Positions 3,070 through 64,000 of a DNA stretch of 64,000 nucleotides are shown one piece after another. Location: positions 7,791,676-7,855,675 of the forward strand of contig OY987240.1 in assembly GCA_963920705.1 (NCBI GenBank), written 5' to 3'. The notes under the pieces were generated by a model. That model searched no databases. It was not told where the DNA came from and saw only the letters and a list, made by a program, of their open reading frames with translations. Each line of letters begins with the position of its first letter. Position 1 is the first letter of the stretch. Source of the DNA: Odiellus spinosus (taxonomy: Eukaryota > Arthropoda > Arachnida > Opiliones > Phalangiidae). Both the position numbers and the translations under genes were made by a program.

Positions 3070-3076
3070 ATATCAT

Positions 3077-37500: not shown

Positions 37501-40500
37501 GTTTCGATTAATTTGAAAGGGATACTAGACTACGTTAACAAGTTAAACAATTTTTGACTGTTGACAAAGACTTAGAGATAATATTAAATTAAATATAAAA
37601 GTCACGAAATAATGCTCGCTAAGCCTAAATCGAGGGGGCAGACACTCGTGAACTCAGGTGTACAAAATTTTGGAACTCTTTGCACTACCAAAGCTAAACT
37701 CAGATTCCATAAGAGTCCGAAATTAATGCACTGTCAAAGCTGAACTCAGGTGTAAAGCCAATTCAAGAGTGTCTGACCCCTCGGCCTAAATCCATCGAGA
37801 AGAAATTTGTAAATTGAAATATCGAAACATTAAAAAAAAAAAATGCTGCAGGAACCAATTTAACACTAAAGCACACGCTATTTCTAACAAATGTGAGGTA
37901 TCAGTTCGTATTGGTTTGAGAAGCAATTTGGTCAAGTCGCTTCGGTTCTAACATGGATTAATCAACCTCACAATTCTCTTTGGTAAAATGATTGTTCGAA
38001 TCGCACCCTGGTGACAAAACACCGGAAGCTTCTAGCTACCGATACACGGGGGTGAAATATTGAAGGGGAAAAAACTAAAGCAGACGATGCTCTCATGGAT
38101 TAATCCATTTAGTTATTATTCAACCTCACACGTGTAGACCAAGGCTTAAGTTGATTCTCTTAATTTCTTTGATATAATATATTTACCTGTTTAAAGTTAG
38201 ATTATTAATTAGATTATAAACATAAATAACTTAAAATGAATATGGAAATGTTACTTACAACAAATAATTTCCAATAGACTTAAAAAGTAAATAAAATATC
38301 CTGACTGCAACGAGAAGTTGTAAACAAAAATCTCCAAAGCTTAGAAAATGTACAAAAACTCCCGGGAGATGGCAACGTTTCAAAAATCTACTTCCCGGAT
38401 TTGTATCGGTAAGGGGGTAAAATTGAGGGGCCGAATAAAATTTCTGGCAGCCATGTTTGAAACAAACATCTTCAACTGCTAGTATAGTAAATCTTACCAG
38501 AGAGAATTATCCCTGTGAGGTTGATTAATCCATGGTTCTAACCACCAAGAAAATAACCAAACCGCCTAGACGGATTTCAGCTGACAAATTTTAAAATAAC
38601 ATTATTAAAATTATAATTTCTGTCAAAAATAATTAAGCAACGATCGAGTTACAAACCCGATTAACTAATTAAGTAGGGATAATTATAATATTTAAATTAG
38701 GGAATTTTTTTAAATCGACTCTAAGCCTTGGATATGGACGAACCGTCTTGGCAAATTGTCACATGCAAACCAGGGACAAATGCAAAACTCCTAGTACCCG
38801 ATTCGGAACCGATTTTTGTCCTCGAGGTTGAACGAGGCTTAATCCGGTTCACGCTGTGGCATTTCCAAGCTTAAGCAATTTAGTAGATTAAAAACAACAT
38901 GATTCCAGTGTTTAGTATCCCTTTACGCGACATATTCAGTTAGTCTGAAGTCTAACCCATTTTCCAAAATCAAGGTTGTTTTGCCTGATTTGGCCGTCAT
39001 TAGAATCGGAGTCTTCGACGAGAATGGTAAGATGTTAGGACAGAGGATTTTGCCCATGGATGGATTGCAAGCCGGTAAGTTAATTTTCTTTCCCTCATTA
39101 TTATCTTTTGCTATTTTGTAGCCCTGGCAAATGATGTATGTAGGTTCTTAAAATTATAAAACGCAAAGGGACTCGTTTTGAGCCTTGTCAAATTAATATC
39201 ACTAATATAATATTTAGAAATTTAAAAAAAATCCTGAGGCTTATAGTGTGACTTCGGTTTTACTCTATCAATACGTGCTTTCGTAGAGTAATGAAACAAA
39301 TTGCCTTTCACAATCAGGAAAAATCGCCCAATAGTTGGTATTATAAAATAACCTTGGAACCAGCAAAAAGAGCCGTTAAAAAGCACCTGTTTCTTTGCCT
39401 GTTTCTATGGAAGATGTTGCCCTTTTTCAAGGCTTGAGCAAAGTATATGATTATCTATACTTTTGACAACCTTGAAACCAACAAAAAGAAACGTTAAATA
39501 GAACCGGTTTGTATGGAAATGTTGCCTTTTTTCAAGGCTGGGACTAAGTGAAGTTTAATGATACCAACTATTTGGTCAAAAATGGTCCAAATTGGAAAAG
39601 TTAAACAGATTCGCCCTACAGTAATTGTCCACCAAGGTTATGATTCGCCCTACAGTAATTGTCCACCAAGGTTATGATTCGCCCTTCAGTAATTGTCCAC
39701 CAAAGTTAGGATTCGCCCTTCAGTAATTGTCCACCAAAGTTAAGATTCGCCCTTCAGTAATTGTCCACCAAAGTTAGGATTAGCCCTTCAGTAATTGTCC
39801 ACCAAAGTTATGATTCGCCCTTCAGTAATTGTCCACCAAAGTTAGGATTCGCCCTACAGTAATTGTCGACCAAAGTTAAGATTCGCCCTACAGTAATTGT
39901 CGACCAAAGTTAAGATTCGCCCTACAGTAATTGTCGACCAAAGTTAAGATTCGCCCTACAGTAATTGTCGACCAAAGTTAAGATTCGCCCTACAGTAATT
40001 GTCCACCAAAGTTAAGATTCGCCCTACAGTAATTGTCCACCAAAGTTAAGATTCGCCCTACAGTAATTGTCCACCAAAGTTAAGATTCGCCCTACAGTAA
40101 TTGTCCACCAAAGTTAAGATTCGCCCTACAGTAATTTTCCACCAAAGTTAAGATTCGCCCTACAGTAATTTTCCACCAAAGTTAAGATTCGCCCTACAGT
40201 AATTATCCACCAAAGTTAAGATTCGCCCTACAGTAATTATCCACCAAAGTTAAGATTAGCCCTACAGTAATTATCCACCAAAGTTAAGATTCGCCCTACA
40301 GTAATTATCCACCAAAGTTAAGATTCGCCCTACAGTAATTATCCACCAAAGTTAAGATTCGCCCTACAGTAATTATCCACCAAAGTTAAGATTCGCCCTA
40401 CAGTAATTATCCACCAAAGTTAAGATTCGCCCTACAGTAATTATCCACCAAAGTTAAGATTCGCCCTACAGTAATTATCCACCAAAGCTAAGATTCGCCA

Positions 40501-43500
40501 TACAGTAATTGTCCACCAAAGTTAAGATTTGCCCTACAGTAACTGTCCACTAAAGTTAAGATTCACCCTACAGTAACTGTCCACCAAAGTTAAGATTCGC
40601 CCTACAGTAATTATCCACCAAAGTGAAGATTTGCCTTACAGTAGCTGTCCACCAAAGTTAAGATTCTCCCTACAGTAATTATCCACCAAAGTTAAGTTTT
40701 GATATACAGTAACTGTCCACCATAGTTAAGATTCGCCCTACAGTAACTGTCCACCAGTGAAGATTTGCCCTACAGTAACTGTCCACCAAAGTTAAGATTC
40801 GCCCTAGAGTAACTGTCCACCAAAGTGAAGATTCGCCCTAGAGTAACTGTCCACCAAAGTGAAGATTTGCCCTACAGTAACTGTCCACCAAAGTTAAGAT
40901 TCTCCCTAGAGTAACTGTCCACCAAAGTGAAGATTTCCCTTACAGTAACTGTCCACCAAAGTGAAGATTTCCCTTACAGTAACTGTCCACCAAATTTTAA
41001 GATTCGCCCTACAGTAATTATCCACCAAAGTGAAGATTTGCCTTACAGTAACTGTCCACCAAAGTTAAGATTCTCCCTACAGTAATTATCCACCCAAGTG
41101 AAGATTTGCCTTATAGTAACTGTCCACCAAAGTTAAAATACGCCCTACAGTAATTGTCCACCAAAGTTAAGATTCGTCCTAGAGTAACTGTCCACCAAAG
41201 TTAAGATTCGCCCTACAGTAATTGTCCACCAAAGTTAAGTTTTGATATACAGTAACTGTCCACCATAGTTAAGATTCGCCCTACAGTAACTGTCCACCAG
41301 TGAAGATTTGCCCTACAGTAACTGTCCACCAAAGTTAAGATTTGCCCTACAGTAACTGTCCATTAAAGTTAAGATTTGCCCTACAGTAACTGTCCATTAA
41401 AGTTAAGATTCGCCCTAGAGTAACTGTCCACCAAAGTTAAGATTCGCCCTAGAGTAACTGTCCACCAAAGTTAAGATTCGCCCTACAGTAATTGTCCACC
41501 AAAGTAAAGTTTTGATATACAGTAACTGTCCACCATAGTTAAGATTCGCCCTACAGTAACTGTCCACCAGTGAAGATTTGCCCTACAGTAACTGTCCACC
41601 AAAGTTAAGATTCGCCCTAGAGTAACTGTCCACCAAAGTGAAGATTTGCCCTACAGTAACTGTCCACCAAAGTTAAGATTTGCCCTACAGTAACTGTCCA
41701 CCAAAGTTAAGATTTGCCCTACAGTAACTGTCCACCAAAGTTAAGATTCGCCCTAGAGTAATTGTCCACCAAAGTTAAGTTTTGATGTACAGTCCACCAT
41801 TGTCTTAATATTTACCACTTTGGAGCGGAAGTAAACAAGGCCAAATTGGAATGTATTTCCGAATATAGGTTACCGTCACGTGTCACTTAGAACGGAAGGA
41901 AACTTCCCAATGTCACTTCCCATGCTCTTCATCTGCATTGAATTAAAAATCTACGTACCTGATGGTTTAGGAGGTGAGTAAACTTTGACCCCTTCATTCT
42001 GAAGATTCTAGAGAAACCAATTTTGATAATTTCGTCTTGATAGACTTGATGGACGCGCTATCTGACCCCAGAGCGTTTTTATCCGCCCAAGAGAAACGCA
42101 TGGTTCAAATGAAAGCGATCGGTATTGAGGAAACCGATATTCAAACCAAAGATCTGAAACTTGGAAGTTCCACCTCCGCTTCTGCGAAAAAAGAAGAAGA
42201 AAAGAAAGGTAAGCGTTGCTTGGACAATGTATCGTTTAAAGTTTTTGGTTTTAAATGCTTGAAGTCTTATTCAATTAGCGGAAGAGTTCCGAATTGATCC
42301 TTTGACTTCGGAAAGCTTGAAAGGGGAAAAAGCCTTCACAAAACAGGTGCGAAAGCAACGGAAGGAATTGGAATCTTTGAGAAAGCGTCATCACAAAGAG
42401 AAAGGCGTAATTCAGAAGCAACAATGCGCGGCCATTGATAAAGTCACCAAAAATAATAAGAAGTAAGTTATTAGGATTCAAATGGTATTTTTACCATTTC
42501 ATTACCACCTCTCGAATAATATTTATAAAAGGACATTTATGGGCAAAGCGGGGAAATTCAAATATTTTCTGATTTTGGGTATGGATGGCGCTATTATGAT
42601 TTTTCTCATCCCTGGAGGTAGCTGTTAAGATTTTTTCCATCCCTGTAGGTCCCATAACCGTCGTCTGCTATATATTCCTCCTGTATTTTTGACAATGGGC
42701 CTAACCAGGGACGGAAATAAGTAAATTTTTTTATTGAACAAATGTCCAGTAACCCCCTTCAAAAATTCAAAAGTTATCGGACATTTAACAAAATAACCGG
42801 ACAATGCTACATTTCCTGTATTAAAAAATACCTATTTTTTATCGGACATTTGTCCAGTGACCCCCTCTTAAAAATAAAAAGTTATCGGACATTTTGGAAA
42901 ATTTATCCGACAATGGCCAGTGACTTGTGCTTATTCCCGTCCCTGGGCCTAACCCATGGAAATGCGTCTAGCCAGTTATATATAGGCCATCTATGGAAGT
43001 TTGGCTTTTTAATTGGTTATCAAAATAACAAATAATACATTATTTGTATATCATTTTTGGAAGTAGGTTTATGTATACTTTACTCATTTTACGCTACTTC
43101 TACCAGAAAAAAGAAAACGGATTATCCTGATATTTTTCCTTCTGGGTCATTCCATAGGGTTTCAGCTAGGCATGCAATCATGGGTCGGCAGATCTAAATG
43201 AAATTTGGTACACTTGTTTCTATGCTTAAAAAACTAGGATTCCCAGATTTTAAGATGAAAATAAGAATATTTGAATTTTTGGCGAAATTTAGAGGAAACT
43301 CCCAAGAGTTTTAGAATGTCAACGAAAAAAAAATTATGCTCTTGCGAAAAAAAAAAACAATATCTAACTGGCGCTTCGGTTGATTCTTTGGAATTTACTC
43401 ATGTTTATAGAGTAAAAGGCTAGGAATCTGATGGTAATTTTGAAAATGGTCTACCTATTTTAGTGTTTTGTTTTTTAATTTTTTTAAATTTCGCGGGTTG

Positions 43501-46500
43501 TCCTACGATGTGACGTGTGACGTCATGAGGCCCAACTTTTAGAATTTTTATTTTCGCTTATTCACCTAGTTTATGTTTGGTTTTTAGTATTTGTTTCGTA
43601 TTTAACTGGTAATCAAAAACAAAAGTTTCGAATTTTTGAAATTTTTATATTTATTTTATAGTTTACTCGAAAATGGTGGTACGACCGTGCTACAGGGGTT
43701 CTATGGGTCATTTTAAGACGAAAATGTTCAATGACTTTTGTCGTATGGGGACGCCGTTTAAGAGTTATGACATGATTCATGAAGACATTTTCGTCTTAAA
43801 ATGACCCATAGAACCCCTGTAGCTCGGTCCTACCACCATTTTCGAAATATCCTGTATGCATAATTAGATATAAAATAAATATAAAAATTCCAAAAATTTG
43901 AAACTTTTCTTTTTGATTACCAGTTAAATACGAAACAAATACCAAAAACCAAACATATACTAGGTGAAAGATGTGCCCTCGTGGTCTTAAGCGAAAATAA
44001 AAATTTTAAAAGTTGAGCCTCATGACGTCACACCTCACATTGTAGGATCACCCGCGAAATTTTAAAAAATTAAAAAACCAAAAAACTAAAAGAGATTGAC
44101 CATCGGATTCCTCGCATTTTACTCTATAAACATAAAGAATCAACCGAAGCGCAAGTTAGATATTGTTTTTTTTCGCAAGAGCATAATTTTTTTTCGTTGA
44201 CGTTCTAAAACTCTTGAGGGTTTACTCTAAATTTCGACCAAAATTCAATTATTCTTATTTTCATCTTAAAATCTGGGAATCTTAGGTTTTTAAGCATAGA
44301 AACAAGGGTACCAAATTTCATTATGATCTGCCGACCCATGGTTGCATGCCTAGGTTAAACCATATGGAATGACCCTTCTCATAAAATCCAATTGTCCAAT
44401 CATTTAGACTGAGCAAAGAAGATCTGGCAAATGACCCTCAAATCCGCGAACTGGTCGTTCAACAGATGACGCAGTGGTCGGAAATGTTGGAGCGACATCG
44501 TCGTGATGAATGGGAATTGCTGAAAACTCAACTTCACCAACAAGGCGAAGTTATGGAAAAGTTAATGGAAGCGGCGCAGGTTCAACAACTGAAACAACTT
44601 GACATGAAATTCGAACGGTGAGGAGCTTTGAAGTTGCGATTTAAACCTCAAAATTTCGCCTCATACTTTTTCTTTTAATACAAAGAGAAAACAAGGAAAT
44701 GAAGACGAAACAAGCTCGAGTGTCCGTGGAAACGGCGAAAGAAGTGGCCAATGACAAGACCTTGAGGAATAAGGCGGAACGCGAAAGACGACTCAAAGAG
44801 AAGAACAGTAACAACACCAAAAAGTTCATTGATGAGAGGAAGATGGCTGCTCACAAACAGGCCAAAGAACGGGAGAAGTTAAAAAAAATACACGAGAAAC
44901 AGCTACAAGATTTGAAAAAAGAAACTGAAAATGCAAGTATACTTTTAAATATTCGCAACCATTTTAACACAAATTCAATTATCAATTCACCCGTTACGCA
45001 CGAAATCGGAATGTTTCGCTAGATAAAAATATTTCACCTATATAGCGAGTAATTTCTTCCAAAAAAATTAACATTGACCAGCAGGCGTTTTCAAGGATTC
45101 GGGCCAATTTTCAAATTGATATTGCCCAAGCTCGCGAGTTTAATCTTCAGAAATTGAAAAATTTCCAAGGCTGTAGTGACGTTTTTACATTTATTTTCCA
45201 TCTGCTCCAATAAAATAGACAAAGAAATCGTTTTACCCAATGAGGAATTAATTTTTAAGTTGATTAAACATTGTCCAATTTTTCAAAAATTTCTACAGAA
45301 CTGCTTGTAATGCCTTGAAACGAATGGAGAAATAGCTGTCGTTGTACAAGCCTTAGAGAGAGATAAATTTGATAAAGCCGTTGCCTGATAATGATATAGC
45401 CTTTTTGTAGGATATTGTCGACTGTCATTACCTCCCTACCACGCAATGAGATAAAGGTGACTATCGTGAAAAGTCTCACCTTTTATAGCATTACGCTCTG
45501 TAGAGATTTTTTTCCTCCCGCGAAAAGAGGTGGATCTTCAAAAAGTCTAGCCGTTGCCTGATAATATTATAGCAATCGCGATCCGCCAATGAGGAGCCTG
45601 GTTGTAGAGGAGGATTTAAAGAACTTAAGGGTTTTTCGGCTCTTAACTTCCACCGCGTTCTTGCTTTATTAATAGGGGGAGAAATAAATGTAGCCCCTCC
45701 ATTATTCTTTCCACTTTCATTGATCAATTGCTTTTACGGTGAAGTCTTATTGCGCGTTCATAACTTCCCCTTATCCAACCCAGGGACCCGATTCTCTAAC
45801 TTTTCTCGATCTCGAACACGATCTCGTGTCGATGTCGATCTCGAAAGCTTTCTTATCGATGTCGATTGTAAAAATGAATTCAGTAACTCTCTCTGTTCGA
45901 GATCGATAAGAGAGTTATCGAAATGCGACTTCGAGAACGATTAACACACTTTCGGTTTTAACACGCATGCGCAAAATAATTTCACCAATAGGATATTAGT
46001 AGATCTAAGCAGACTACACAACAAGAGCATTTGGTATTTTTTCGGTTGCCATGTGTTCCATAGATTATTTTAAATTTGGACATGGCTGAAGTTAGACGCA
46101 ATCGAGTAACGCAATCACAACAAGAAACGATGATAGATGTATTAGAAAATAATGAAAGGTTTAAAACAAGAAAGCTTTCGGCAGGGTTTACATTAAATGA
46201 ATATGATAAAGTATGAAATTTTCTAGCTGATAAACTATACTTTGATGGAAATGGCCCAAAAAAAAATAAATTTTATCTCAATCTCCAAGGCGACATTTAA
46301 TACGGCTAGACGAGCAAAATTATTTACGACCATTTTAGTTTTCACTCATAAGCTGACGCCCCGTATGGATTTCTTTTGATGCACTGATTGGGCGAAAACC
46401 CTGTCGAAAAGGATATCGACAGCCCAAACCCCGGTGAGATCGACTTCGATTACGCAGTCGAAGTTCGAGAACTTTTTTGCGACAAATATCTTACAGAATT

Positions 46501-51339: not shown

Positions 51340-52440
51340 TGGTAGAATACGCCCTTATCGGGGTGGAATATTCTACCAGTATCGCGACGATGATATAGCT
51401 ATAACCAGTTTTAGACTAAAGTAAAAATTAGCTGATATAAGCATTTTAAACTTAAAAACTACATGATACATGAAATAGCATTTTTCTATTCGAATTAATA
51501 TTAATTACTCCAAAACCGGTTAGCCCCCAGATATGACGGTATGACCATTGGATAGATTATTAAATACTTTAACATGTGTTTTCATTTGAGAAGGTTTCAA
51601 TGTGTTTGTCGAGGGAGGTATTGGCCCTTTTTCCAAACCCTACATCAATTTCTAGGTAAATTTTTTATTATAGCTTTTTTTCTAAATTAATTAATATTAA
51701 TTATACCGAAACGGTTTAGGATCCGTATATCACGCTAGTACCATTTCACAGATAATTAAATGCTTAGCAATATGCTTTTATATCAGAAGCTTCCTTTGTG
51801 TACGGGAACGATAGTAGCCATAATTCCAACACCCAATAAATTTTCTATTTATATTTTTGATTGTAGCATTTTTTTTTTTTTATATATTTGAATTAATATT
51901 AATTACTCCAAAACGGCTTAGGGCCCAGATATGATCCTAATTCCATTGGATAGATAAATAAATTATCTGTAAAAAACTACATTTGAAACCAAACGCATTT
52001 ACATACATATAGCAATTATTAATATTTTTATCGTTTTAATTAGTTTTATTTCATGTATCAAGTAGTTTTTCAGCGTAAAATGCTGAAGTCCGTTCATTTT
52101 CACTTTAGTCTGAAGTTGGTTATAGATATATCGTCCGTCGCGATACTGGTGAAATAATCCACCCAGATTTGGTTTTAGGGCGTATTCTGCCAGGCTAATG
52201 CTATTGAGACCACCGTCAATCTGCCAGAATACGCCCTAATAAAGCGTATCGTCGCTGGGTGGATTATTCCACCAGATCCGCGACGAACGATATAGCTATA
52301 ACCAATTTCAGACTATGGTAGAAACGAACGGATTTATTAATTTTAAGCTGAATAACTACACGGTATATGAAAAAAAAAAATAATTAAAACGAAAAAAATA
52401 TTAATAATTGCTATACGTGTGTAAATGCGTTTCGTTTTAA
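51340..52440. repeat. Palindromic region with inverted satellite copies
   Basis: Inverted around about 52,195: AGGGCGTATTCTG and CAGAATACGCCCT face each other, and the arms extend about 200 bp each way (GGTTATAGATATATCGTC / GACGAACGATATAGCTATAACC). Copies of the satellite unit in reverse orientation lie at about 51,500, 51,690 and 51,880. A third copy of the arm motif (GTAGAATACGCCCTT) is at 51,344. Confidence 0.85.
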
Positions 52441-52539
52441 ATATAACTTTTTAACAGATAATCAATTGTGGCGCCCACGTTCATCAAAACGGAATTTTTA
52501 CAGGGAAATTAATCAATTTAGAAAGTGAACAATATGGGG

Positions 52540-54812
52540 TTATGGATTATATCTCCGCTCACACACATAGGAACTTTCTGAAATTAAAACATATTGTAGA
52601 GTATTTAATTATCTATTCAATGGTACTAGCGTCATATCTGGGCCCTAAGCAGTTTTGGAGTTATTAATAATAATTCACATGGAAAAAAATCTCTACTCAA
52701 AAATTCCTACAGAAAATTGTTAGGGGGGTTGACATTTTGGTTAATATCTCCGCTCACACACATAGGAGCCTTCTGAAATTAAAACATATTGTAGAGTATT
52801 TAATTATCTATCCAATGGTATTAGCGTCATATCTGGGCCCTAAGCCGTTTTGGAGTTATTAATAATAATTCACATAGAAAAAAAATCTCTACTCAAAAAT
52901 ATACATATAGTAAATTGTTAGGGGGGGTTGGAATTTCTGCTAATATCTCCGCTCACACACATAGGAACCGTCTGAAATTAAAACATATTGTAGAGTATTT
53001 AATTATCTATCCAATGGTACTAGCGTCATATCTGGGCCCTAAGCCGTTTTGGAGTTATTAAATAATTCACATAGAAAAAAATCTCTACTCAAAAATTCCT
53101 ACAGAAAATTGTTAGGGGGGTTGACATTTTGGTTAATATCTCCGCTCACACACATAGGAACCTTCTGAAATTAAAACATATTGTAGAGTATTTAATTATC
53201 TATCCAATGGTACTAGCGTCATATCTGGGCCCCAAGCCGTTTTGGAGTTATTAAATAATTCACATAGAAAAAAATCTCTACTCAAAAATTCCTACAGAAA
53301 ATTGTTAGGGGGGTTGGCTTTTTGGTTAATATCTCCGCTCACACACATAGGAACCTTTTGAAATTAAAACATATTGTAGAGTATTTAATTATCTATCCAC
53401 TGGTAATAGCGTCATATCTGGGCCCTAAGCCGTTTTGGAGTTATTAATAATAATTCACATGGAAAAAAATCTCTACTCAAAAATTCCTACAGAAAATTGT
53501 TAGGGGGGTTGGCTTTTTGGTTAATATCTCCGCTCACACACATAGGAACCTTTTGAAATTAAAACATATTGTAGAGTATTTAATTATCTATCCACTGGTA
53601 ATAGCGTCATATCTGGGCCCTAAGCCGTTTTGGAGTTATTAATAATAATTCACATGGAAAAAAATCTCTACTCAAAAATTCCTACAGAAAATTGTTAGGG
53701 GGGTTGGCTTTTTGGTTAATATCTCCGCTCACACACATAGGAACCTTTTGAAATTAAAACATATTGTAGAGTATTTAATTATCTATCCACTGGTAATAGC
53801 GTCATATCTGGGCCCTAAGCCGTTTTGGAGTTATTAATAATAATTCACATAGGAAAAAATCTCAACTCAAAAATTCCTACAGAAAATTGTTAGGGGGGTT
53901 GGCATTTTGGTTAATATCTCCGCTCACACACATAGGAACCTTCTGAAATTAAAACATATTGTAGAGTATTTAATTATCTACCCAATGGTACTAGCGTCAT
54001 ATCTGGGCCCTAAGCCGTTTTGGAGTTATTAATAATAATTCACATGGAAAAAAATCTCTACTCAAAAATACCTACAGAACATTGTTAGGGGGTTGGCATT
54101 TTGGTTAATATCTCCGCTCACACACATAGGAACCTTTTGAAATTAAAACATATTGTAGAGTATTTAATTATCTATCCAATGGTACTAGCGTCATATCTGG
54201 GCCCTAAGCCGTTTTGGAGTTATTAATAATAATTCACATAGAAAAAAATCTCTACTCAAAAATATACTTATAGTAAATTGTTAGGGGGGGGGGGGTTGGA
54301 ATTACTGCTAATATCTCCGCTCACACACATAGGAACCTTTTGAAATTAAAACAAATTGTAGAGTATTTAATTATCTATCCAATGGTACTAGCGTCATATC
54401 TGGGCCCTAAGCCGTTTTGGAGTTATTAAATAATTCACATAGAAAAAAATCTCTACTCAAAAATTCCTACAGAAAATTGTTAGGGGGGTTGGCTTTTTGG
54501 TTAATATCTCCGCTCACACACATAGGAACCTTTTGAAATTAAAACATATTGTAGAGTATTTAATTATCTATCCAATGGTACTAGCGTCATATCTGGGCCC
54601 TAAGCCGTTTTGGAGTTATTAATAATAATTCACATAGAAAAAAATCTCAACTAAAACATTCCTACAGAAAATTGTTAGGGGGGTTGGCTTTTTGGTTAAT
54701 ATCTCCGCTCACACACATAGGAACCTTCTGAAATTAAAACATATTGTAGAGTATTTAATTATCTATCCAATGGTACTAGCGTCATATCTGGGCCCTAAGC
54801 CGTTTTTAAGTA
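52540..54812. repeat. About 194-bp satellite, 11-12 copies
   Basis: Each unit begins AATATCTCCGCTCACACACA and includes CATATCTGGGCCCTAAGCCG; starts near 52,541, 52,744, 52,942, 53,135, 53,329, 53,524, 53,718, 53,914, 54,107, 54,310, 54,504 and 54,698. Spacing is 193-203 bp. Some runs of units (53,329-53,910) share private variants, showing block duplication. Confidence 0.97.
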
Positions 54813-55156
54813 ATTAATGTTAATTTAAATATTAACATTCTTAAATTAAAATATTCATTGAACTTTTCTAGATTTTTATATAGCGTCAAACTAATTGGTT
54901 TCCCCCTTTTCGTATTTAAACATGGGTACTCACAGCTCTCGCCACGTGAAGGCTAGTTTGACGCGCTTGGACTAAATCCTTAAGAGAGCCGCTAGGGAGC
55001 CTGATTGTTTATATTTTGTTGGCACTTGGTCAGACTCCCTAGGGACGATTGGTTAACTAAGAACCTTAAAGGTATATATACTGCTATGAAATATCTACAT
55101 TTCAGACCTTAGTACAATTTGCAGAATTTTTAAAGAAGTATAAATATATTCCTTAT
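54813..55156. other. Intergenic with short inverted repeats
   Basis: GCGTCAAACTA (about 54,883) faces TAGTTTGACGC (about 54,953), and CTAGGGAGCCTGA (about 54,992) faces TCAGACTCCCTAG (about 55,030). No gene. Confidence 0.5.
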
Positions 55157-55850
55157 CGTCCTTGAGCAAACGAGGCTCACTCCTTGGACAGAGCAAACGA
55201 GGCTCACTCCTTGGACAGAGCGAACGAGGCTCATTTCTTGGACAGAGCAATCGAGGCTCACTTCTTGGACAGAGCAAACGAGGCTCACTTCTTGGACAGA
55301 GCAAACGAGGCTCACTTCTTGGACAGAGCAAACGAGGCTCACTTCTTGGACAGAGCAAACGAGGCTCACTTCTTGGACAGAGCAAACGAGGCTCACTTCT
55401 TGGACAGAGCAAACGAGGCTCACTTCTTGGACAGAGCAAACGAGGCTCACTTCTTGGACAGAGCAAACGAGGCTCACTTCTGGGACAGAGCAGAGGCTCA
55501 CTTCTCGGACAGAGCAAACGAGGCTCACTTCTGGGACAGAGCAGAGGCTCACTTCTGGGACAGAGCAAACGAGGCTCACTTCTGGGACAGAGCAAACGAG
55601 GCTCACTTCTGGGACAGAGCAGAGGCTCACTTCTGGGACAGAGCAGAGGCTCACTTCTGGGACAGAGCAGAGGCTCACTTCTGGGACAGAGCAGAGGCTC
55701 ACTTCTGGGACAGAGCAGAGGCTCACTTCTGGGACAGAGCAGAGGCTCACTTCTGGGACAGAGCAGAGGCTCACTTCTGGGACAGAGCAGAGGCTCACTT
55801 CTGGGACAGAGCAGAGGCTCACTTCTGGGACAGAGCAGAGGCTCACTTCT
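55157..55850. repeat. 27-bp and 24-bp tandem array just beyond the large ORF
   Basis: Unit A (27 bp) contains GAGCAAACGAGGCTCACTTC; unit B (24 bp) contains GAGCAGAGGCTCACTTCTGG. A-type copies dominate 55,157-55,480, they mix to about 55,620, then B-type to 55,850. Both lengths are multiples of three, so several frames on both strands stay open for 160-280 codons; I see no gene there. It probably lies in the 3' untranslated region or flank of the minus-strand gene. Confidence 0.93.
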
Positions 55851-55919
55851 TGGATTTTCGGCTAAATTTCATTCAAGAGCAAACAAGGCTCGCTTATTGG
55901 ATTCAGGTTTTTATAAACT

Positions 55920-58900
55920 TCATAAAAATTCATTTTTTTTTATCTCTTGTTCATAAATATTTCTACAAAGCAGGATGTCCTTTTTGGCTAATTCATGACC
56001 TGGATATCCCAAAGCAATCCATTTAGCGTACAAGCATGTTATAGGCCCACAGTCATAACCATTGTCTTGCTTTGGAAAATTATCTGTAGATCTTTCTATT
56101 TCCCAGCTTGGCTCTCTATCTTTACGATTAAGATTAAAGCCCTCAATAATGTTGACAATAGTTCTCAGATGTTTACCATCGTACTTTCCCATATACTTAT
56201 GAATTGGTTGTTCTTCAGTGTTAGAGTCCCAAGTAGAATCATAAACAGTTATTTGAAAGATTTCCTTGACACCCGTTAAGTTTCGCTTAACGGTGAACAT
56301 AAAAAAGTGACCTTCTCTAGCCATGACAATGAAAGATAATTTGGAACGTTGGATATTTTCATACGCTTTTTCAATCCATCTGGAACTAGATTTTAACTCT
56401 AAACACCTAAGAACGTGTGAATAGAAATGTGTGTCCTGGAATGAAAGTTCAGGACATCGGTTTACTAGCATTTCGAAATAGCCTCTAATCATGTTATCGT
56501 GAAACCATTCTTTATTCTTAATGATATTATATTCTCGTAACCCTAATTGATATCCTCCATCAGGTTTACTTTTTTCAGGGCACAAATTATCATCAGATGA
56601 TAAAATATCCACAATTATTTCATCTTCAACTTCGTTAATGCTCACATCTTGAAAAGGGGACTCAGAAACTGGATCTTCACATAAGAAATCTAGTTTTTTC
56701 TTCTTTATTTTTCCTAAATCGTCGTTTGACCGGGGTTTGTTCAAGGTTCTCTTTTTGGTTTGTGACGCTTGTGGTGTTTCCGGACTTCCTCCAGTTTTCT
56801 TTTCGTATCGACGAACAAGAGATGACCCTGGACTTCGTTGATATACGCCTCTAGATCTTTCAGAAGCATCTTTCTTCACTCGAGGTCTAGTTTTCTTAAA
56901 TGTTTCCTTTATTTCCTTAATTTCATCGTACATCCTTTTGCGTCTGTTTTGATTTGGGAGAGGCGTAGATGAGTTTATCAAAGCACGCAAATACTGTTGT
57001 TTGTTGTACGTTTCAAGCTTTTGTACAACTAAGTCAGCGCGGAGTAAGAACTCTCGGGGAAGGCAAAGCTCTTTCAGAAGTTTGTGGTATCCTTCAACGT
57101 GACCTTGGGTATACACCGGGTGATCAATGTAGTTAACTAAGCCCTTCTTAAATTTATCTCTTGGTCTGTAAGCCTCGGGTATTGGTTTCGAGTTTTGTTC
57201 AAAGTGCCTGGAAAGATCTCCGGAAAGCAACCTGGTCCACAACAGTAAAGTAGGAAAATAATTCTTCTGCATGTATGCCAATAAATCTGGTCCATAGTAG
57301 GGATTTAATTCTCGGGATTGATCCAAATTCTCGTGCTTCTCAACTTCAGCCTTTGCTCGATCAATTAGACAATCTGATAAGTTCTTAAAAAACTTATTAC
57401 CGGACAATAGATCCTCCTCTTCGTTTTTGGCCAAATTAATGGTTGATGCGTCATTTTCTTCATTTGTTTCTTCTTCGTCTTTTCTTTTTTGTTCGTCTTC
57501 TTTGGTTTCTAACTTCTCGTCAACAGTATTATTAGCAGTTTTTCCCAAGGAATCTGCCAAATTCGACATTTTTCGGACATTTTCATTGGTGAAGTCATTT
57601 TTGTACTTAGACGAGAGAATGACTGCTGCACAAAATATCTTGTCTCTTACTTCTTTAAAATAATGACTATTTATAATGACGCTCAGCATAAACAATCCGA
57701 ATCTACGCTCAGAGCTATAGCATTTCCTCATAAGCCTACTACCGTCGTTCATCATATGACAAAGACCGCACTGGATTATTGTCATTTCCAAGTCTTTTCC
57801 ATTGGCATTACCCTCTAGAATCTTTCTACACACGTCCAAGTACTCGGGTAATTCCATGGAGTTGAATTCCTTCAGAGCGGCACAAATAAGAACTAAACTT
57901 CTGTCACTGGAAATAACTGCGGGCTTTATGATATCTCTATGACCTAGAAGAGTTTTTTGCGCCTTGAGAAATCCATTTAACATGCCTTCAACAGTCTCGC
58001 GTGTTTGGCTATCACTCAAAAGTTCAACTAGAGGTAAAGGAGTTGAACTATCTTGCCCCTTCTCCGTTATTTTAGCGCATCGCATAACCATGACGATATA
58101 CATGAACTGATGGTTGCCAACCTTTTGCGATACTGTTCCTGTTGCGTCCCATGAAAAATCAGTCCGTTTACAATTTTCACGGAAAGTTCTAACTGAAGCT
58201 TTCGTGTACATCAGTATGGTACATGGATTTAAGCCCACACGTCGCACATAGTCACCGTGGGTTTCAACGAGTTTATTTAAACTCACGAAAACATCTCTCG
58301 CTAACCGTTCCTTTTTCCACATTTCCGCTTTCACCTGCCTCATTGTTCCCTTTCTTAAAGTAGATTCTGTTAAAGCTCCCTTCGCTATATCAGATGATTT
58401 TGTTTTACCATCCAGTTCCAACAGCGCTTCTGAAGGCTTCTTATTCTGATTTTTAACAAATCCTTTTCGCAACTTCTGTCGTGGCTTACCACGAAGTTGG
58501 GGACAAGCTATTGTACCGAATGCGTGGGTTGGGTTGCCGTGATTTTCAATGACGCATGTATAGTCATTAAAAATTTTAATTTCACATTTGGCTCTGCATT
58601 TGAATTGTTTGGACTTTCGACGTGAACAATAGAGATTACACTGAAACCGAAACCCAGAAGCCTCTGAATCATAGGGAGCGTAGTGGTTTTCGATACACCA
58701 CATGCAATGAGGATTTTTAGCTTTTAATATATCAAGTAAAGGACTTCTATAATAATCTACGTTTAACCTCTCGTTGGCGTATCTGTTGATTACCATTTTC
58801 GACCAAATGTCCTTGGAGATACTAAACTCAACCACACGAGGTGGTGGCTTGTTTATTTCTCCTTCGGAGCTGGCTTCACGGCCTAAAATATCCTTGTAAA

Positions 58901-61900
58901 CCTCCGGAGACATTGAACTCGATTCCATAACGCTGTTGGAAGAATGGTCGGCGAAACCATTACTTGAACTACTACTGTCGTTGGATATAGACTCGACTGT
59001 AACGGGGCTGTAAGGCTGGCATCCAGGATCAGATTGAGATAAATCATCAGACAAACCTTTCATATTGTAATCCGATTGAGAATCGGAAATAAAAACACTA
59101 GGGTTATCATCTTGATTTTCATCTACATCTATTTGAGACTGACTAGAAGTTTTTGTAGATGTATGACTTGTGGTGCTTTCAGAACTGGTGATATCCAAAG
59201 GAATTATTCCGTCCACCTCGTAAAATGCCATGACCCAGTCATGAGCAATATCTGGATCACCCTCAACAGTTGTTTTCTCATCATTGTAACATCCCCAAAA
59301 ATGAGAATCGAGCTTTGAATAGGCAATGTAATGACTGTAGCTCTTTCCAATATCCCCAAGATGTACTACACAACTTTTTAATCTATACCTTAAACCCAAA
59401 TATTCTAATGTTGGCTCAAGTTCAACCATTTTGCGATTTTTTTCCCCATTATGATTACGGGGACAACAGAATATTAAAACTTGGTGTGCGTTATCTACAT
59501 CATCAATTCGCCTGCTCTCCTGCGTACATGGTTCTCCACAATCATTTGTTGCAGGACAGATGCGATTACGTTTTGGTTCTAATTCCGCAGCATACTGTGA
59601 AATGTTGTCTTTATCATTTCCTAAAATGAAATATTTAACAACAGAGTCGTTGGTTTCTGCAAAATGTGGAGTTCTACAAGAATTGCAAAGGTACATCATG
59701 ACATCCTGCAAGGTTTGAAAGCTAGCTCCAATAAACGGCAATACCAAATTTAAGAATTCCAAAGGGTCGTGCATCCCAGCTAGTTCCATATTCCCTTTAG
59801 ACAATATTTGAACGTGTCGAAGAAGCACTTCTACATCAGCTCGTGAAACAGATTTTTCGGTTTTCTCCTTAAGTTTTGACACAAAGCTACATAGTTGTTG
59901 ATCAGTTATTTTGGCATTAAAAAACGCGCGGGTCTCTAATAAAGACTGTAATAAAGAAGATAACCAACAATTCTGCAAAACATTTTGAATACCTCTACGC
60001 AAGGAGGCTTTCCAACACGGGGGACATTTGAGGTTATCATCATTTTCCACTTGTTTAGCTGTTCTTGGACTATCACGCAATCCAACACACGTAAAATGGA
60101 GCCATTGATTGCAGCCGGTGCACATAAAATACGCGGTATTCTTGTTGTTGGGTTTACCACAGAAACAGAAAGTTTCTCGATTCTTTTTTTCTAAAGTTGG
60201 ATAGACCATATCTTGATCTACTTTCTTTGAAGCGATTCGGTTGGTTCGTCTTAAAGGAAAAACTCCCAAATTGCGGGAAGCCGTAACCTGCTCAGGTAAA
60301 ACGGCCACACCAGATGGAGTCTTAACAGGCGTAGGTGGAACATTAACGGAACGAGAACGAACCTCTACGGGCGAAGCCCCGGAGCTACAAATAACTTTGA
60401 CAGGTGGAGCTGTAGAACAAGTATGAATCTTGTCCTTCAATTTGCGTTTTGGTTTTACTAATGAAAATCTCTTATTTTTGTCTTCTTTTGTGAAGATTTT
60501 GGAAACATGAGGATCTTCAGGGTGTGAAGACGCGCCCATGACCAAAGTGTTAGATGGCGCAGTAATGGCAGAAAGATCAGACGCCGCAGCAATGGTTAAT
60601 TGATCTGATAACGTATCGATGACCAAAGGGTCGTATGATCGATCGATGGCCAAGGGATTGGATGAACCATCGATGACGAAAGGGTCGGATGATCCATCGA
60701 TGACCAAAGGGTCGGATGATCCATCGATGACCAAAGGGTCGGAAGGTCCATCGATGACCAAAGGGTCGGATGGTCCATCGATGAGCAAAGGATCGAATGA
60801 CCCATCGATGAGCGAAGGATCGAATGACCCATCGATGACCAAAGGGTCAGATGACCCATCGATGACCAAAGGGTCAGATGACCCATCGATGACCAAAGGG
60901 TCGGATGACCCATCGATGACCAAAGGGTCGGATGACCCATCGATGACCAAAGGGTCGGATGACCCATCGATGACCAAAGGGTCGGATGACCCATCGATGA
61001 CCAAAGGGTCGGATGACCCATCGATGACCAAAGGGTCGGATGACCCATCGATGACCAAAGGGTCGGATGACCCATCGATGACCAAAGGGTCGGATGACCC
61101 ATCGATGACCAAAGGGTCGGATGACCCATCGATGACCAAAGGGTCGGATGACCCATCGATGAACAAAAGGTCGGATAACGCATCAATGTCAAAAGGGTCC
61201 GACGACGCAGCAATGACCAAAGGATCGGACGACGCAGCGATATCTGAAGGGTCTAACGGCACAGCTATTGGATCTAATGACGCAGCGATGACCGAAAGGA
61301 CGGACGGTGCAGAAGTGGCCAATGGATCTGATGACGCAGCGATGACCGAAAGGACGGACGGTGCAGAAGTGGCCAATGGATCTGATGACGCAGCGATGAC
61401 CGAAAGGACGGACGGTGCAGAAGTGGCCAATGGATCTGATGACGCAGCGATGACCGAAAGGACGGACGGTGCAGAAGTGGCCAATGGATCTGATGACGCA
61501 GCGATGACCGAAAGGACGGACGGTGCAGAAGTGGCCAATGGATCTGATGACGCAGCGATGACCGAAAGGACGGACGGTGCAGAAGTGGCCAATGGATCTG
61601 ATGACGCAGCGATGACCGAAAGGACGGACGGTGCAGAAGTGGCCAATGGATCTGATGACGCAGCGATGACCGAAAGGACGGACGGTGCAGAAGTGGCCAA
61701 TGGATCTGATGACGCAGCGATGACCGAAAGGACGAACGGTGCAGAAGTGGCCAATGGATCTGATGACGCAGCGATGACCGAAAGGACGGACGGTGCAGAA
61801 GTGGCCAATGGATCTGATGACGCAGCGATGACCGAAAGGACGGACGGTGCAGAAGTGGCCAATGGATCTGATGACGCAGCGATGACCGAAAGGACGGACG

Positions 61901-63149
61901 GTGCAGAAGTGGCCAATGGATCTGATGACGCAGCGATGACCGAAAGGACGGACGGTGCAGAAGTGGCCAATGGATCTGATGACGCAGCGATGACCGAAAG
62001 GACGGACGGTGCAAAAGTGGCCAATGGATCTGATGACGCAGCGATGACCGAAAGGACGGACGGTGCAGAAGTGGCCAATGGATCTGATGACGCAGCGATG
62101 ACCGAAAGGACGGACGGTGCAGAAGTGGCCAATGGATCTGATGACGCAGCGATGACCGAAAGGACGGACGGTGCAGAAGTGGCCAATGGATCTGATGACG
62201 CAGCGATGACCGAAAGGACGGACGGTGCAGAAGTGGCCAATGGATCTGATGACGCAGCGATGACCGAAAGGACGGACGGTGCAGAAGTGGCCAATGGATC
62301 TGATGACGCAGCGATGACCGAAAGGACGGACGGTGCAGAAGTGGCCAATGGATCTGATGACGCAGCGATGACCGAAAGGACGGACGGTGCAAAAGTGGCC
62401 AATGGATCTGATGACGCAGCGATGACCGAAAGGACGGACGGTGCAGAAGTGGCCAATGGATCTGATGACGCAGCGATGACCGAAAGGACGGACGGTGCAG
62501 AAGTGGCCAATGGATCTGATGACGCAGCGATGACCGAAAGGACGGACGGTGCAGAAGTGGCCAATGGATCTGATGACGCAGCGATGACCGAAAGGACGGA
62601 CGGTGCAGAAGTGGCCAATGGATCTGATGACGCAGCGATGACTAAAGGTTCGGCTGGAAGGTCTGACGACACAGCTATTGGATCTGATGACGCAGCGGTG
62701 ACTAGAAGTTCACACGACGCAGCGATACCTGGAAGGTCTGACGACACAGCTATTGGATCTGATGACGCAGCGATGGCTGAAAGATCTGACGACACAGCTA
62801 TTGGATCTGATGACGCCGGTAATGGAAATGACGACGCAGCGATGACTAAAGGATCGGACGACGCGGTATTGGCTGACAAGTTGGTATGATGTTTTTGAAT
62901 ATCAATAATAATCTCGTGGAAAAAGGTATTAAAGCCTTTGTAGTTCTTCGTGTACTTTTTATGGAAGTACTTAGACGCATACTTAAAACTTCTTTTACTG
63001 ATCCCTACTTCGTAAGCTACTCGATTATAAATCTCTGACCATTCACCATCAAATTCATGAATTCTTTTATAGTCGAAAACAATGACCCGTAACATAGCCT
63101 GGGGAAGATCGTAATGAAGAACCTTAGAGTGCTCCAAAGTAAACACCAT
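55920..63149 (-). CDS. Intronless ~2,409-aa protein: PHD finger, USP protease, MULE-type DDE transposase, Ulp1/SENP protease
   Basis: I chose the ATG at 63,149 (AAGATGG, good context); the frame is open 18 codons further upstream through a poorly placed ATG at 63,182. Domains: conserved-looking helical N-terminus (1-90); serine/aspartate/alanine repeats (about 90-830); PHD finger (about 992-1,046, CFCGKP...CTGCNQWLHFTC...CPPC); USP domain (about 1,050-1,312) with Cys1061 (LQNCWLSSLLQ), His1273 (YSHYIAY) and Asp1290 (CYNDE), plus CNSC finger cysteines; Cys/His zinc-binding segment (about 1,480-1,545); MULE-like DDE domain with Asp1668 (WDATGT), Asp1749 (ISSDRS), a CGLCH motif and Glu2019 (HVEGYHKLLK); basic linker (KIKKKKLD); C-terminal C48 peptidase (about 2,205-2,400) with His2281, Asp2304, Gln2361 and Cys2367 (QDNGYDCGP). 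All three active-site sets look intact. Plant KI-MULEs are known to carry Ulp1-like domains; a USP in addition is unusual. Probably an autonomous transposon or domesticated gene. I see no terminal inverted repeats and no AATAAA before 55,000. Confidence 0.87.
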   Translation of the reverse strand: MVFTLEHSKVLHYDLPQAMLRVIVFDYKRIHEFDGEWSEIYNRVAYEVGISKRSFKYASKYFHKKYTKNYKGFNTFFHEIIIDIQKHHTNLSANTASSDPLVIAASSFPLPASSDPIAVSSDLSAIAASSDPIAVSSDLPGIAASCELLVTAASSDPIAVSSDLPAEPLVIAASSDPLATSAPSVLSVIAASSDPLATSAPSVLSVIAASSDPLATSAPSVLSVIAASSDPLATSAPSVLSVIAASSDPLATFAPSVLSVIAASSDPLATSAPSVLSVIAASSDPLATSAPSVLSVIAASSDPLATSAPSVLSVIAASSDPLATSAPSVLSVIAASSDPLATSAPSVLSVIAASSDPLATSAPSVLSVIAASSDPLATFAPSVLSVIAASSDPLATSAPSVLSVIAASSDPLATSAPSVLSVIAASSDPLATSAPSVLSVIAASSDPLATSAPSVLSVIAASSDPLATSAPFVLSVIAASSDPLATSAPSVLSVIAASSDPLATSAPSVLSVIAASSDPLATSAPSVLSVIAASSDPLATSAPSVLSVIAASSDPLATSAPSVLSVIAASSDPLATSAPSVLSVIAASSDPLATSAPSVLSVIAASSDPLATSAPSVLSVIAASLDPIAVPLDPSDIAASSDPLVIAASSDPFDIDALSDLLFIDGSSDPLVIDGSSDPLVIDGSSDPLVIDGSSDPLVIDGSSDPLVIDGSSDPLVIDGSSDPLVIDGSSDPLVIDGSSDPLVIDGSSDPLVIDGSSDPLVIDGSSDPLVIDGSFDPSLIDGSFDPLLIDGPSDPLVIDGPSDPLVIDGSSDPLVIDGSSDPFVIDGSSNPLAIDRSYDPLVIDTLSDQLTIAAASDLSAITAPSNTLVMGASSHPEDPHVSKIFTKEDKNKRFSLVKPKRKLKDKIHTCSTAPPVKVICSSGASPVEVRSRSVNVPPTPVKTPSGVAVLPEQVTASRNLGVFPLRRTNRIASKKVDQDMVYPTLEKKNRETFCFCGKPNNKNTAYFMCTGCNQWLHFTCVGLRDSPRTAKQVENDDNLKCPPCWKASLRRGIQNVLQNCWLSSLLQSLLETRAFFNAKITDQQLCSFVSKLKEKTEKSVSRADVEVLLRHVQILSKGNMELAGMHDPLEFLNLVLPFIGASFQTLQDVMMYLCNSCRTPHFAETNDSVVKYFILGNDKDNISQYAAELEPKRNRICPATNDCGEPCTQESRRIDDVDNAHQVLIFCCPRNHNGEKNRKMVELEPTLEYLGLRYRLKSCVVHLGDIGKSYSHYIAYSKLDSHFWGCYNDEKTTVEGDPDIAHDWVMAFYEVDGIIPLDITSSESTTSHTSTKTSSQSQIDVDENQDDNPSVFISDSQSDYNMKGLSDDLSQSDPGCQPYSPVTVESISNDSSSSSNGFADHSSNSVMESSSMSPEVYKDILGREASSEGEINKPPPRVVEFSISKDIWSKMVINRYANERLNVDYYRSPLLDILKAKNPHCMWCIENHYAPYDSEASGFRFQCNLYCSRRKSKQFKCRAKCEIKIFNDYTCVIENHGNPTHAFGTIACPQLRGKPRQKLRKGFVKNQNKKPSEALLELDGKTKSSDIAKGALTESTLRKGTMRQVKAEMWKKERLARDVFVSLNKLVETHGDYVRRVGLNPCTILMYTKASVRTFRENCKRTDFSWDATGTVSQKVGNHQFMYIVMVMRCAKITEKGQDSSTPLPLVELLSDSQTRETVEGMLNGFLKAQKTLLGHRDIIKPAVISSDRSLVLICAALKEFNSMELPEYLDVCRKILEGNANGKDLEMTIIQCGLCHMMNDGSRLMRKCYSSERRFGLFMLSVIINSHYFKEVRDKIFCAAVILSSKYKNDFTNENVRKMSNLADSLGKTANNTVDEKLETKEDEQKRKDEEETNEENDASTINLAKNEEEDLLSGNKFFKNLSDCLIDRAKAEVEKHENLDQSRELNPYYGPDLLAYMQKNYFPTLLLWTRLLSGDLSRHFEQNSKPIPEAYRPRDKFKKGLVNYIDHPVYTQGHVEGYHKLLKELCLPREFLLRADLVVQKLETYNKQQYLRALINSSTPLPNQNRRKRMYDEIKEIKETFKKTRPRVKKDASERSRGVYQRSPGSSLVRRYEKKTGGSPETPQASQTKKRTLNKPRSNDDLGKIKKKKLDFLCEDPVSESPFQDVSINEVEDEIIVDILSSDDNLCPEKSKPDGGYQLGLREYNIIKNKEWFHDNMIRGYFEMLVNRCPELSFQDTHFYSHVLRCLELKSSSRWIEKAYENIQRSKLSFIVMAREGHFFMFTVKRNLTGVKEIFQITVYDSTWDSNTEEQPIHKYMGKYDGKHLRTIVNIIEGFNLNRKDREPSWEIERSTDNFPKQDNGYDCGPITCLYAKWIALGYPGHELAKKDILLCRNIYEQEIKKNEFL
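60660..61172 (-). repeat. In-frame 27-bp coding minisatellite (9-aa unit), about 19 copies
   Basis: Encodes SSDPLVIDG units (residues about 660-830 of the large protein). The 5' and 3' edge units are diverged and the central ones nearly identical at nucleotide level. Confidence 0.95.
61276..62640 (-). repeat. In-frame 54-bp coding minisatellite (18-aa unit), about 25 copies
   Basis: Encodes SDPLATSAPSVLSVIAAS units (residues about 170-623). Copies are almost identical; only a handful carry substitutions (for example SAPSVLS to FAPSVLS or SAPFVLS). The complementary strand is also free of stops (60,619-62,889), a by-product of the unit. Such homogeneity implies recent expansion or ongoing homogenisation. 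Confidence 0.96.
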
Positions 63150-63473
63150 CTTGAATAATCTATATATAAAGCAGTAAAACATATAAAAAAATATTACTGG
63201 CAAGACTAAACAGTTTGCGCAGTAAAGCTTTAACAGCTTACTGTGATAAGTTGCTTTTAACGCGCAAAAGCATTGCGATAATGAAAATAAGCTTTTACTA
63301 CAGTAAAATGAAGGGTGATTTAACTGAAGGGTGATTTAAGCGTAAAACGAGTTTTGCCAGTCTCAGAAAGGGTATGGAAATTATATCCAAGCTACAATAA
63401 CCCAACACTCCACCTATTAAGTTATATAGAAATTCAAATCATATCTCAGTTGATCTGCCAGCCATTTAAGGGA
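63150..63473. other. Upstream flank of the large ORF
   Basis: TATATATA occurs at about 63,160-63,167, but it is too close to the chosen ATG to act as its TATA box. GAAGGGTGATTTAA is directly repeated near 63,310-63,340. No terminal inverted repeat matching the 3' side found. Confidence 0.4.
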
Positions 63474-63640
63474 GTAGAAACTAATTCAAGGAAAACCTAA
63501 ACTAATTTAAGGAGCCTAAACTAATTCAAGGAAGCCTGAACTAATTCAAGGAAAACCTAAACTAATTTAAGGAGCCTGAACTAATTCAAGGGTGCGTATA
63601 ATAATTCAAAGGTGCGTAAACTAATTCAAGGGAGCATAAA
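63474..63640. repeat. Degenerate ACTAATTCAAGGAA repeats
   Basis: About nine loose units of 19-23 bp: AAACTAATTCAAGGAAAACC, alternating with AAACTAATTTAAGGAGCC. Confidence 0.85.
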
Positions 63641-64000
63641 CCTTGGATATATTAATGGTACCATAGTGCCTAGGAACATTTCTTGGAAAAGTAAGCTAAA
63701 CCAGTCGGCCAGGAGTTCCAGGCGTCAACCCCCTAATTACTCCCCTTTTAGAGGATAAAACTTCTATTATAGAAGGCTTCAAGCGAGAGAAAAAAGGGAT
63801 TGTTGCCCCAAAAAGTGAATACAAAGACCCTTTTTTATCAGAAAATTAACTGTAGCTATGCATCTGCAGGGTTTCCCTAAGTTCAAGCTTAGGCGGTTTG
63901 ATAAAAATGGTTAAAATCAAAGAGTGCCCAATTTCCGCTTGAAGATAAGTATGCCCCTTATGTAGAATTCAAGTGAAATTACAGGAATTTACGAAGAAGC
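63641..64000. other. Right window edge: nothing recognised
   Basis: No gene or repeat seen. Confidence 0.4.

Follow-up and report, generated by a model that had tools for sequence, protein, structure and literature searches.

A Candidate Rehavkus-Like Transposon of Odiellus spinosus with a PHD-USP-DDE-C48 Protein and an ALKBH2-Like Gene

The described system to which the element discussed here comes closest is Rehavkus, a group of transposons from arthropod hosts that has been placed in the Mutator superfamily or as its sister (PMC6446971, PMC10218199). Rehavkus is described as having one open reading frame (ORF) and a PHD finger, with a minisatellite ahead of the 3′ terminal inverted repeat (TIR), TIRs of 26-400 bp, and a 9-bp target site duplication (TSD) (PMC6446971), and the Tribolium element Rehavkus-1_TC, which is 9.5 kb long, has satellite arrays with a 164-bp unit in its inverted termini (PMC10218199). 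The locus that we compare with these elements was met in a 64,000-nt stretch of Odiellus spinosus DNA (the window), located at C18:7791676-7855675 in a host genome of 443 Mb and 286 contigs, where contigs are labelled C plus a number (C18 being that of the window) and loci L plus a number. The element, copy A, is 24,317 bp long and runs from window 52209 to 76525, so that it extends 12.5 kb beyond the window; positions above 64000 are extended window coordinates to its right. Other copies are labelled B, C, and D. In our reading, the large ORF of this element, ORF1, encodes a transposase-type protein, and the 24.3 kb with their two genes are a DNA transposon, apparently of the cut-and-paste kind and Rehavkus-like and Mutator-superfamily-like in anatomy, that would evade silencing; we give this reading a probability of roughly 0.6. 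The anatomy itself consists of inverted ends of about 340 bp, satellites inside them, a PHD-USP-DDE-C48 protein, and a divergent ALKBH2-like gene.

ORF1 (55920..63149, minus strand) has 2,409 codons plus a stop and is intronless as read; its frame remains open upstream as far as 63335, which makes 2,471 codons. The initial annotation had seen a PHD finger, a deubiquitinase (USP), a DDE-like transposase, and a deSUMOylase (C48) in this single frame. The frame was verified, and Pfam, searched with the protein in pieces, supports the PHD, USP, and C48 domains. The residues singled out there are also where they had been placed: C1061, H1273, and D1290 (with N1289 adjacent) in USP, D1668, D1749, and E2019 in the DDE-like region with the CxxCH at 1794-1798, and H2281, D2304, Q2361, and C2367 in C48. 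Of the 2,409 codons, some 750 belong to minisatellites that keep the frame (60615..62862, minus strand), with 27- and 54-bp units and a short part with a 75-bp period, according to Tandem Repeats Finder (TRF).

The PHD finger (60012..60182, minus strand; residues ~990-1046) matches PF00628 with an E-value of 1.7e-5 and 25.2 bits against a cut-off of 24, and in the PDB it matches, by sequence, the DIDO1 PHD (9.8e-5). The USP domain (59214..60011, minus strand; residues 1047-1312, with C1061, H1273, and N1289/D1290) matches the UCH profile, PF00443, at 7.6e-11 (42.5 bits, cut-off 23.9); in the PDB, USP47 is matched at 0.015 for the whole query, and the Cys and His boxes align, neither stretch being significant alone. 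In a divergent paralogue, positions 1-246 of the 254 in the UCH profile are covered (E 9.2e-13), and the same frame contains a PHD match of 1.9e-4, just under the cut-off. The C48 (Ulp1/SENP) domain (55923..56549, minus strand; residues 2201-2409) matches Peptidase_C48, PF02902, at 5.9e-8 (33.2 bits, cut-off 20.7) and SENP1 in the PDB at 0.0011. Searches of PHROGs and NCBIfam returned nothing useful.

The DDE-like transposase region (56910..58352, minus strand; residues 1600-2080) is proposed from its motifs: D1668, D1749, the CxxCH, and E2019 are present and largely conserved, in what may be an RNase H-like order. The initial annotation had called this region MULE-type (for Mutator-like element), and here the profiles did not follow it. 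Shorter pieces of the region matched only CENP-X (0.12) and DUF3347 (2.6) in Pfam, and the region is not among the 72 matches to PF10551 (MULE) in the host genome. An hhalign comparison with five MULEs of the same genome gave an E-value of 0.1, no better than the reversed control (0.08) or the best of 39 shuffles (0.02), and the DDE region of a paralogue had no relevant match in the PDB; the label thus rests on motifs. The KDZ/Zisupton family was considered because its elements carry accessory enzymes, and it was rejected, there being no KDZ Pfam match up to E 10. Ahead of the DDE region is a Cys/His cluster (58515..58709, minus strand; residues 1481-1545), defined by its pattern, which we take to be possibly a WRKY/FLYWCH-like zinc finger and which had no match in Pfam. 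Its C1482, C1504, C1508, C1518, and C1522 are kept in all four aligned divergent relatives (see below); C1485 and H1537 are not.

The expectation that the protein would prove multicopy was borne out by the genome search, and copies are bounded by transposon-type ends. At E <= 0.001, residues 860-2409 have at least 41 matches (with 30 scored out of 168 candidates), the DDE region has 69 (all 77 candidates scored), and PHD-USP has 43 (all 57 scored); no relatives were found in the viral_contigs and genome_contigs collections. Copy B (C9) is 98-99% identical to A, split over several frames, with part of USP missing, and its loci, L012 and L013, keep all the scored catalytic residues that they cover. 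For copies C (C9) and D (C73), identity to A is 98% across residues 1588-2408, and each has a single stop; their left flanks agree but for one difference, which makes the pair look like the two haplotypes of a single insertion.

Residue conservation was projected onto 13 loci, namely eight closer or decayed ones and five divergent relatives, L023 and L024 (C18), L025 (C13), L026 (C10), and L027 (C9), which are 34-53% identical by stretch and in which PHD-USP-DDE is kept. The USP residues C1061, H1273, N1289, and D1290 are present in all five at 34-44% identity, and the CxxCH and E2019 are likewise kept in all five; D1668 is kept in the four that align there. The PHD finger aligns directly before USP in all five; its eight zinc ligands are complete in L023, L024, and L025, and L026 and L027 have seven of them and a stop codon at one, with that of L027 in another frame. 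In L023, PHD, USP, and the Cys cluster share one stop-free frame, and its C48, the only one among the divergent relatives with Cys, His, and Asp, has Glu for Gln; beyond this C48 lies a 199-bp satellite of different sequence.

Selection was estimated from the ratio of nonsynonymous to synonymous rates (dN/dS), families at about 40% identity being saturated at synonymous sites. For USP, the two unsaturated comparisons gave 0.20 (B) and 0.17 (C158). For the DDE region with the Cys cluster, the ratios were 0.38 (C158), 0.22 (C1-11.5M), 0.58 and 0.56 (the two C8 copies, whose linker was left out as a spurious alignment), and 0.36, 0.63, and 0.69 against B, C, and D; for C48, they were 0.32, 0.27, 0.40 and 0.43, and 0.70, 0.53, and 0.59, respectively, the counts for B, C, and D being small and the stops in most of the compared copies pushing ratios toward 1. 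The comparison of A with B over 1,503 codons gave 0.41 (22 nonsynonymous and 14 synonymous changes). Constraint is clear for USP and in the older comparisons and weaker in the youngest, and that on the DDE region and C48 varies with the copy compared.

The ends of the element were found through its copies. Window 52208-52209 is where A becomes homologous to B, C, and D; beyond it, the flanks differ among the copies, the C/D pair excepted. At this point begins the left TIR (52209..52548, plus strand; starting ACCACCGTCAATCTGCCAGAATACGCCC), whose inverted partner (76187-76525, outside the window) is 98% identical and ends at C18:7868200, that is, window 76525. The unique part of the inverted repeat is about 340 bp, and inverted similarity runs on through satellites to about 2 kb. 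These satellites, identified with TRF and unstranded, are an array of 11.7 copies of a 195-bp unit just inside the left repeat (52549..54825), also present in B, C, and D, and a 198-bp array inside the right one (74644-76186, outside the window). Between the satellite and TIR end and the ORF1 stop, TRF also found 26.9 copies of a 27-bp minisatellite (55164..55854, unstranded), which recurs in B, C, and D and has a related array in L018 and L022. No convincing inverted ends were found within the window alone because the right end lies outside it; likewise, the inverted repeats, arrays, 9-bp duplications, and AlkB gene are absent from the initial annotation because they lie outside the window or in flanks. 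The central region, which starts at 63150..64000 (unstranded), lies between the two divergent genes and runs out of the window to the second of them. It contains a 1-kb imperfect palindrome (78%; extended coordinates 65387-66413, L010), the centre of which is missing in copy C and within which the alignment of B with A stops.

The 340-bp terminus has at least 44 matches in the genome (40 of 78 candidates scored). Termini were paired by a nearest-opposite-end rule, and duplications were inspected at 14 complete pairings, C14:18.89M and C4 being without a complete end. Exact 9-bp duplications flank five of the 14 related-terminus pairings (C1:8409691-8413046, C12:4645001-4657696, C1:8106-11533, C14:5647803-5660708, and C2:20984027-20995903), and a sixth, C5:7889881-7892189, has a match of 8/9 with a 3-bp shift; the C10 and C1:8106 pairings have one flank in common. 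The family therefore transposes with 9-bp duplications, copy A's own insertion event being outside that demonstration.

Two further features of the termini were observed. A and C directly adjoin older sequences that resemble their own termini, and B, by eye, perhaps does too, as if the element targeted its own ends by preference. In addition, four terminus-bounded stretches of 12-15 kb are without a match to the DDE region (C12:4645001-4657696, C14:5647803-5660708, C2:20984027-20995903, and C16:7987033-8002278), and three of these four have exact 9-bp duplications.

The second gene encodes an AlkB-type dioxygenase. Its three exons (73579-73812, 73971-74113, and 74249-74543, extended coordinates; plus strand, outside the window, divergent from ORF1) join at GT-AG sites to give 224 aa without stops, with a low-complexity ORF directly upstream. 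The protein is closest to ALKBH2 (E 7e-57, aligned over residues 25-222 of 224), and exon 3 by itself suffices for a PF13532 match (2.8e-24). A genome search with this exon gave 18 matches (all 30 candidates scored), four of which are inside terminus-bounded stretches, those of A, B, C, and C14, the right end of the last being 19 bases short. The AlkB of C is 99% identical to that of A, and those of B and C14 are 64-65% identical to it; the domain exons are free of stops in both copies read (A and B). The two halves of the element are exchangeable, since B has this level of AlkB identity but a transposase region at 98-99%, and since the A-B alignment, ends excepted, stops at window 65586.

Nine of the 18 AlkB matches have a transposase or USP match no more than 21 kb away and, with the terminus-bounded C and C14, the number becomes 11; the share of the genome within 20 kb of such a match is about 0.4%. 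The remaining seven are C15, C1:8117233 (1.3 kb from a related terminus), C180 twice, C33, C84, and C2:30419470. Leaving aside A and B, seven AlkB matches have a transposase locus within 21 kb. Five of them (near L023, L024, L026, L027, and the C2:30.11M relative) are oriented divergently from it; C2:30126380 is on the same strand as its neighbour, and C10:1301477, which is 96% identical to the AlkB of B over 118 codons, is convergent. Thus, four of the five divergent relatives have an AlkB gene nearby, L025 being the one with none, and some of these AlkB loci may be duplicates of one another. The AlkB near L024 (L054), the only one of these compared with the PDB, is ALKBH3-like (1.1e-17 versus 1e-8 for ALKBH2). 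The match at C15:8456490, which is 60% identical to A's over 145 codons and shows the same division into exons 2 and 3, is probably the host's own ALKBH2. At L057:561-2447 and 2713-3432 (C33:934801-938800), an intronless AlkB ORF (PF13532, E 8.4e-27) with a minisatellite-coded tail is followed after about 1.8 kb by a canonical MULE transposase (PF10551), so that an AlkB gene also accompanies a second family of Mutator type.

How might such an element work? The DDE region, with D1668, D1749, and E2019, would cut and join the ends of the element; the PHD finger would dock the ORF1 protein on chromatin; USP and C48 would free silencing factors, histones, or the transposase of ubiquitin and SUMO; and the AlkB enzyme would take methyl groups off the DNA or RNA of the element. 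The combined effect would be an element that stays expressible and mobile despite host silencing. SUMO and ubiquitin marks are central to the silencing of animal transposons, and SUMO-dependent transposon silencing is known in flies. A larger proposal, which we make tentatively and with the odds somewhat against it, is that of a giant animal transposon lineage with a self-liberation kit, in which a chromatin-reading transposase, a deubiquitinase, and a deSUMOylase are joined by AlkB enzymes from two sources, ALKBH2-like in one branch and ALKBH3-like in another. If true, this kit would hit several layers of host silencing at once.

A number of observations weigh against the reading of ORF1 as the transposase of a silencing-evading, Rehavkus-like element. 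Residues 1440-2140, around the DDE region, match no Pfam family up to E 10. D1749 is kept in three of the five divergent relatives and is N in L026 and L027; among the closer, decayed loci, C1794 and H1798 are lost in L018/L019, D1668 has become E in L021/L022, and E2019 has become Q in L020/L022; the CxxCH is lost in L028. C48 is degraded in L025 (with Tyr and Thr in the places of His and Asp), survives as a fragment in L026, and was not detected in L024 and L027. The dN/dS values of the DDE region and C48 against B, C, D, and the C8 copies span 0.36-0.70. Some of the AlkB genes close to divergent relatives may be those of other, nested MULEs, because such genes adjoin PF10551 MULEs (C33 at 1.8 kb, C2:30.42M at 1.7 kb, C84 at 7.5 kb, and C10:1281806 at 7.6 kb).

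The same holds for several properties of the ends. There is no target duplication at copy A or at B and C, which are among the eight of 14 pairings without one (the others being C2 57.9 kb, C12:14.37M, C6, C16, and C10), and at B a 7/8 duplication appears only if both ends are shifted. The 57.9-kb pair of C2 termini proved wrong and was replaced by an 11.9-kb pair that has a common left end and an exact duplication. Where the duplication is exact, four of the five pairs combine an end at 98-99% with one at 86-90%, and the fifth has both at 86-87%, unlike A, B, and C, in which both ends are at 97-100%. Since end identities differ in this way and older related termini stand in A's flanks on both sides, A, B, and C could be composites. 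Finally, the pairs with exact duplications span 3.4-12.9 kb and are without a match in the DDE-region search.

One alternative is that the proteases and AlkB serve protein stability and repair instead of erasing chromatin marks, with USP and C48 shielding the very large transposase from degradation directed by ubiquitin or SUMO and AlkB mending methylated bases when transposition intermediates are single-stranded. This would fit the presence of both proteases in one protein with the transposase, where they could act in cis, and the closeness of A's AlkB to ALKBH2, which repairs 1-methyladenine and 3-methylcytosine in DNA. We consider it rather unlikely, however, since the position of the PHD finger directly before USP in all five divergent relatives, with eight ligands in three, points to chromatin; PHD fingers of this kind often read histones.

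Another alternative is that ORF1 is a domesticated, transposon-derived gene with a role in the host. Its frame is intact, unlike those of the near-identical B, C, and D, which are broken or incomplete, and its enzyme domains are under constraint, but this constraint is explicable by transposition-level selection on ancestors, and the near-identical copies elsewhere with the same left end, the 98% inverted partner, and the many decayed copies make domestication hardly credible. It is also very improbable that USP, C48, and AlkB are passenger fragments, captured by chance in the manner of Pack-MULEs and functionless in the element. Mutator-superfamily elements do often capture host sequence (PMC2528002), two types of AlkB stand beside MULE-type elements in this genome, and the dN/dS of C48 reaches 0.70 against B. 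Passengers would, however, hardly be expected to keep the USP active-site residues in five of five relatives at 34-44% identity or to have a USP dN/dS of 0.17-0.20, and AlkB is present in four terminus-bounded copies with domain exons stop-free in A and B. A silencing-evading transposon remains the reading that we prefer.

Elsewhere in the window, exons at 33423-45019 (plus strand) resemble, by eye, what we take to be a phospholipase C-beta gene. Many long tandem arrays occur in window 1-54825, for example at 567-2228 (29 bp), 39607-41779 (34 bp), and 27418-28886 (30 bp), and tRNA and Rfam searches of the window gave no match. In the host assembly, the first 300 bases of contig C1 contain TCAGG/TTAGG repeats in both orientations.

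How far, then, does the element resemble Rehavkus? It has a PHD finger (PF00628) in its transposase protein and a minisatellite before the 3′ TIR (the 27-bp and 195-bp arrays), although the latter counts for little by itself, arrays being common in the window. The Rehavkus TIRs of 26-400 bp compare with a unique part of about 340 bp and inverted similarity to about 2 kb here, and the 9-bp TSD with exact duplications at five of 14 related pairings and none at A, B, or C. Rehavkus has one ORF, whereas here there are two genes in 24.3 kb, and its descriptions, in their accessible parts, make no mention of USP, C48, or AlkB. The anatomical match is close, as judged from the published description rather than the transposase sequence; because of this basis, the second gene, and the lack of a TSD at copy A, we call the element no more than Rehavkus-like.

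As to C48, the initial annotation had invoked plant KI-MULEs as a precedent for this domain beside a MULE transposase. The presence of Ulp1 in plant transposons holds: KI-MULEs have the domain, pointing the opposite way from mudrA, in other plant MULEs both orientations occur, and rice proteins combine CACTA Tnp2 with ULP1 domains (PMC2528002). VANC proteins of VANDAL elements counter silencing (PMC13317346). The KI-MULE/KIU, VANDAL-VANC, and CACTA-ULP systems are like ours in being transposons with a Ulp1/C48 domain; they differ in their plant hosts, and their descriptions, as available, do not mention USP or AlkB. Given the plant Ulp1 transposons and the rice Tnp2-ULP1 proteins, joining C48 to a transposase is nothing new in itself. 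In the literature searched, whose scope did not include Repbase or most subscription journals, no element was found in which erasers of both ubiquitin and SUMO are fused to a transposase, nor one that adds AlkB to these. The presence of intact and decayed copies in one genome makes it testable whether transposons carry enzymes against their own silencing.

Dioxygenases have been found in other mobile elements. Fungal DNA transposons encode TET/JBP 2-oxoglutarate dioxygenases, which remove methylcytosine (PMC12730594); these are likewise DNA transposons with a 2-oxoglutarate dioxygenase gene, but the enzyme is TET/JBP rather than AlkB, the hosts are fungi, and our element has no KDZ match in Pfam. 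In orchids, 25-kb Ty3/Gypsy elements carry an AlkB m6A demethylase with demethylase activity in vitro (PMC9289625). These too are large mobile elements with an AlkB-type domain, but they are LTR (long terminal repeat) retrotransposons, and their AlkB resembles m6A RNA demethylases and not ALKBH2. The recruitment of dioxygenases by different classes of element, TET/JBP in fungi, AlkB in orchid LTR elements, and AlkB here, thus becomes testable.

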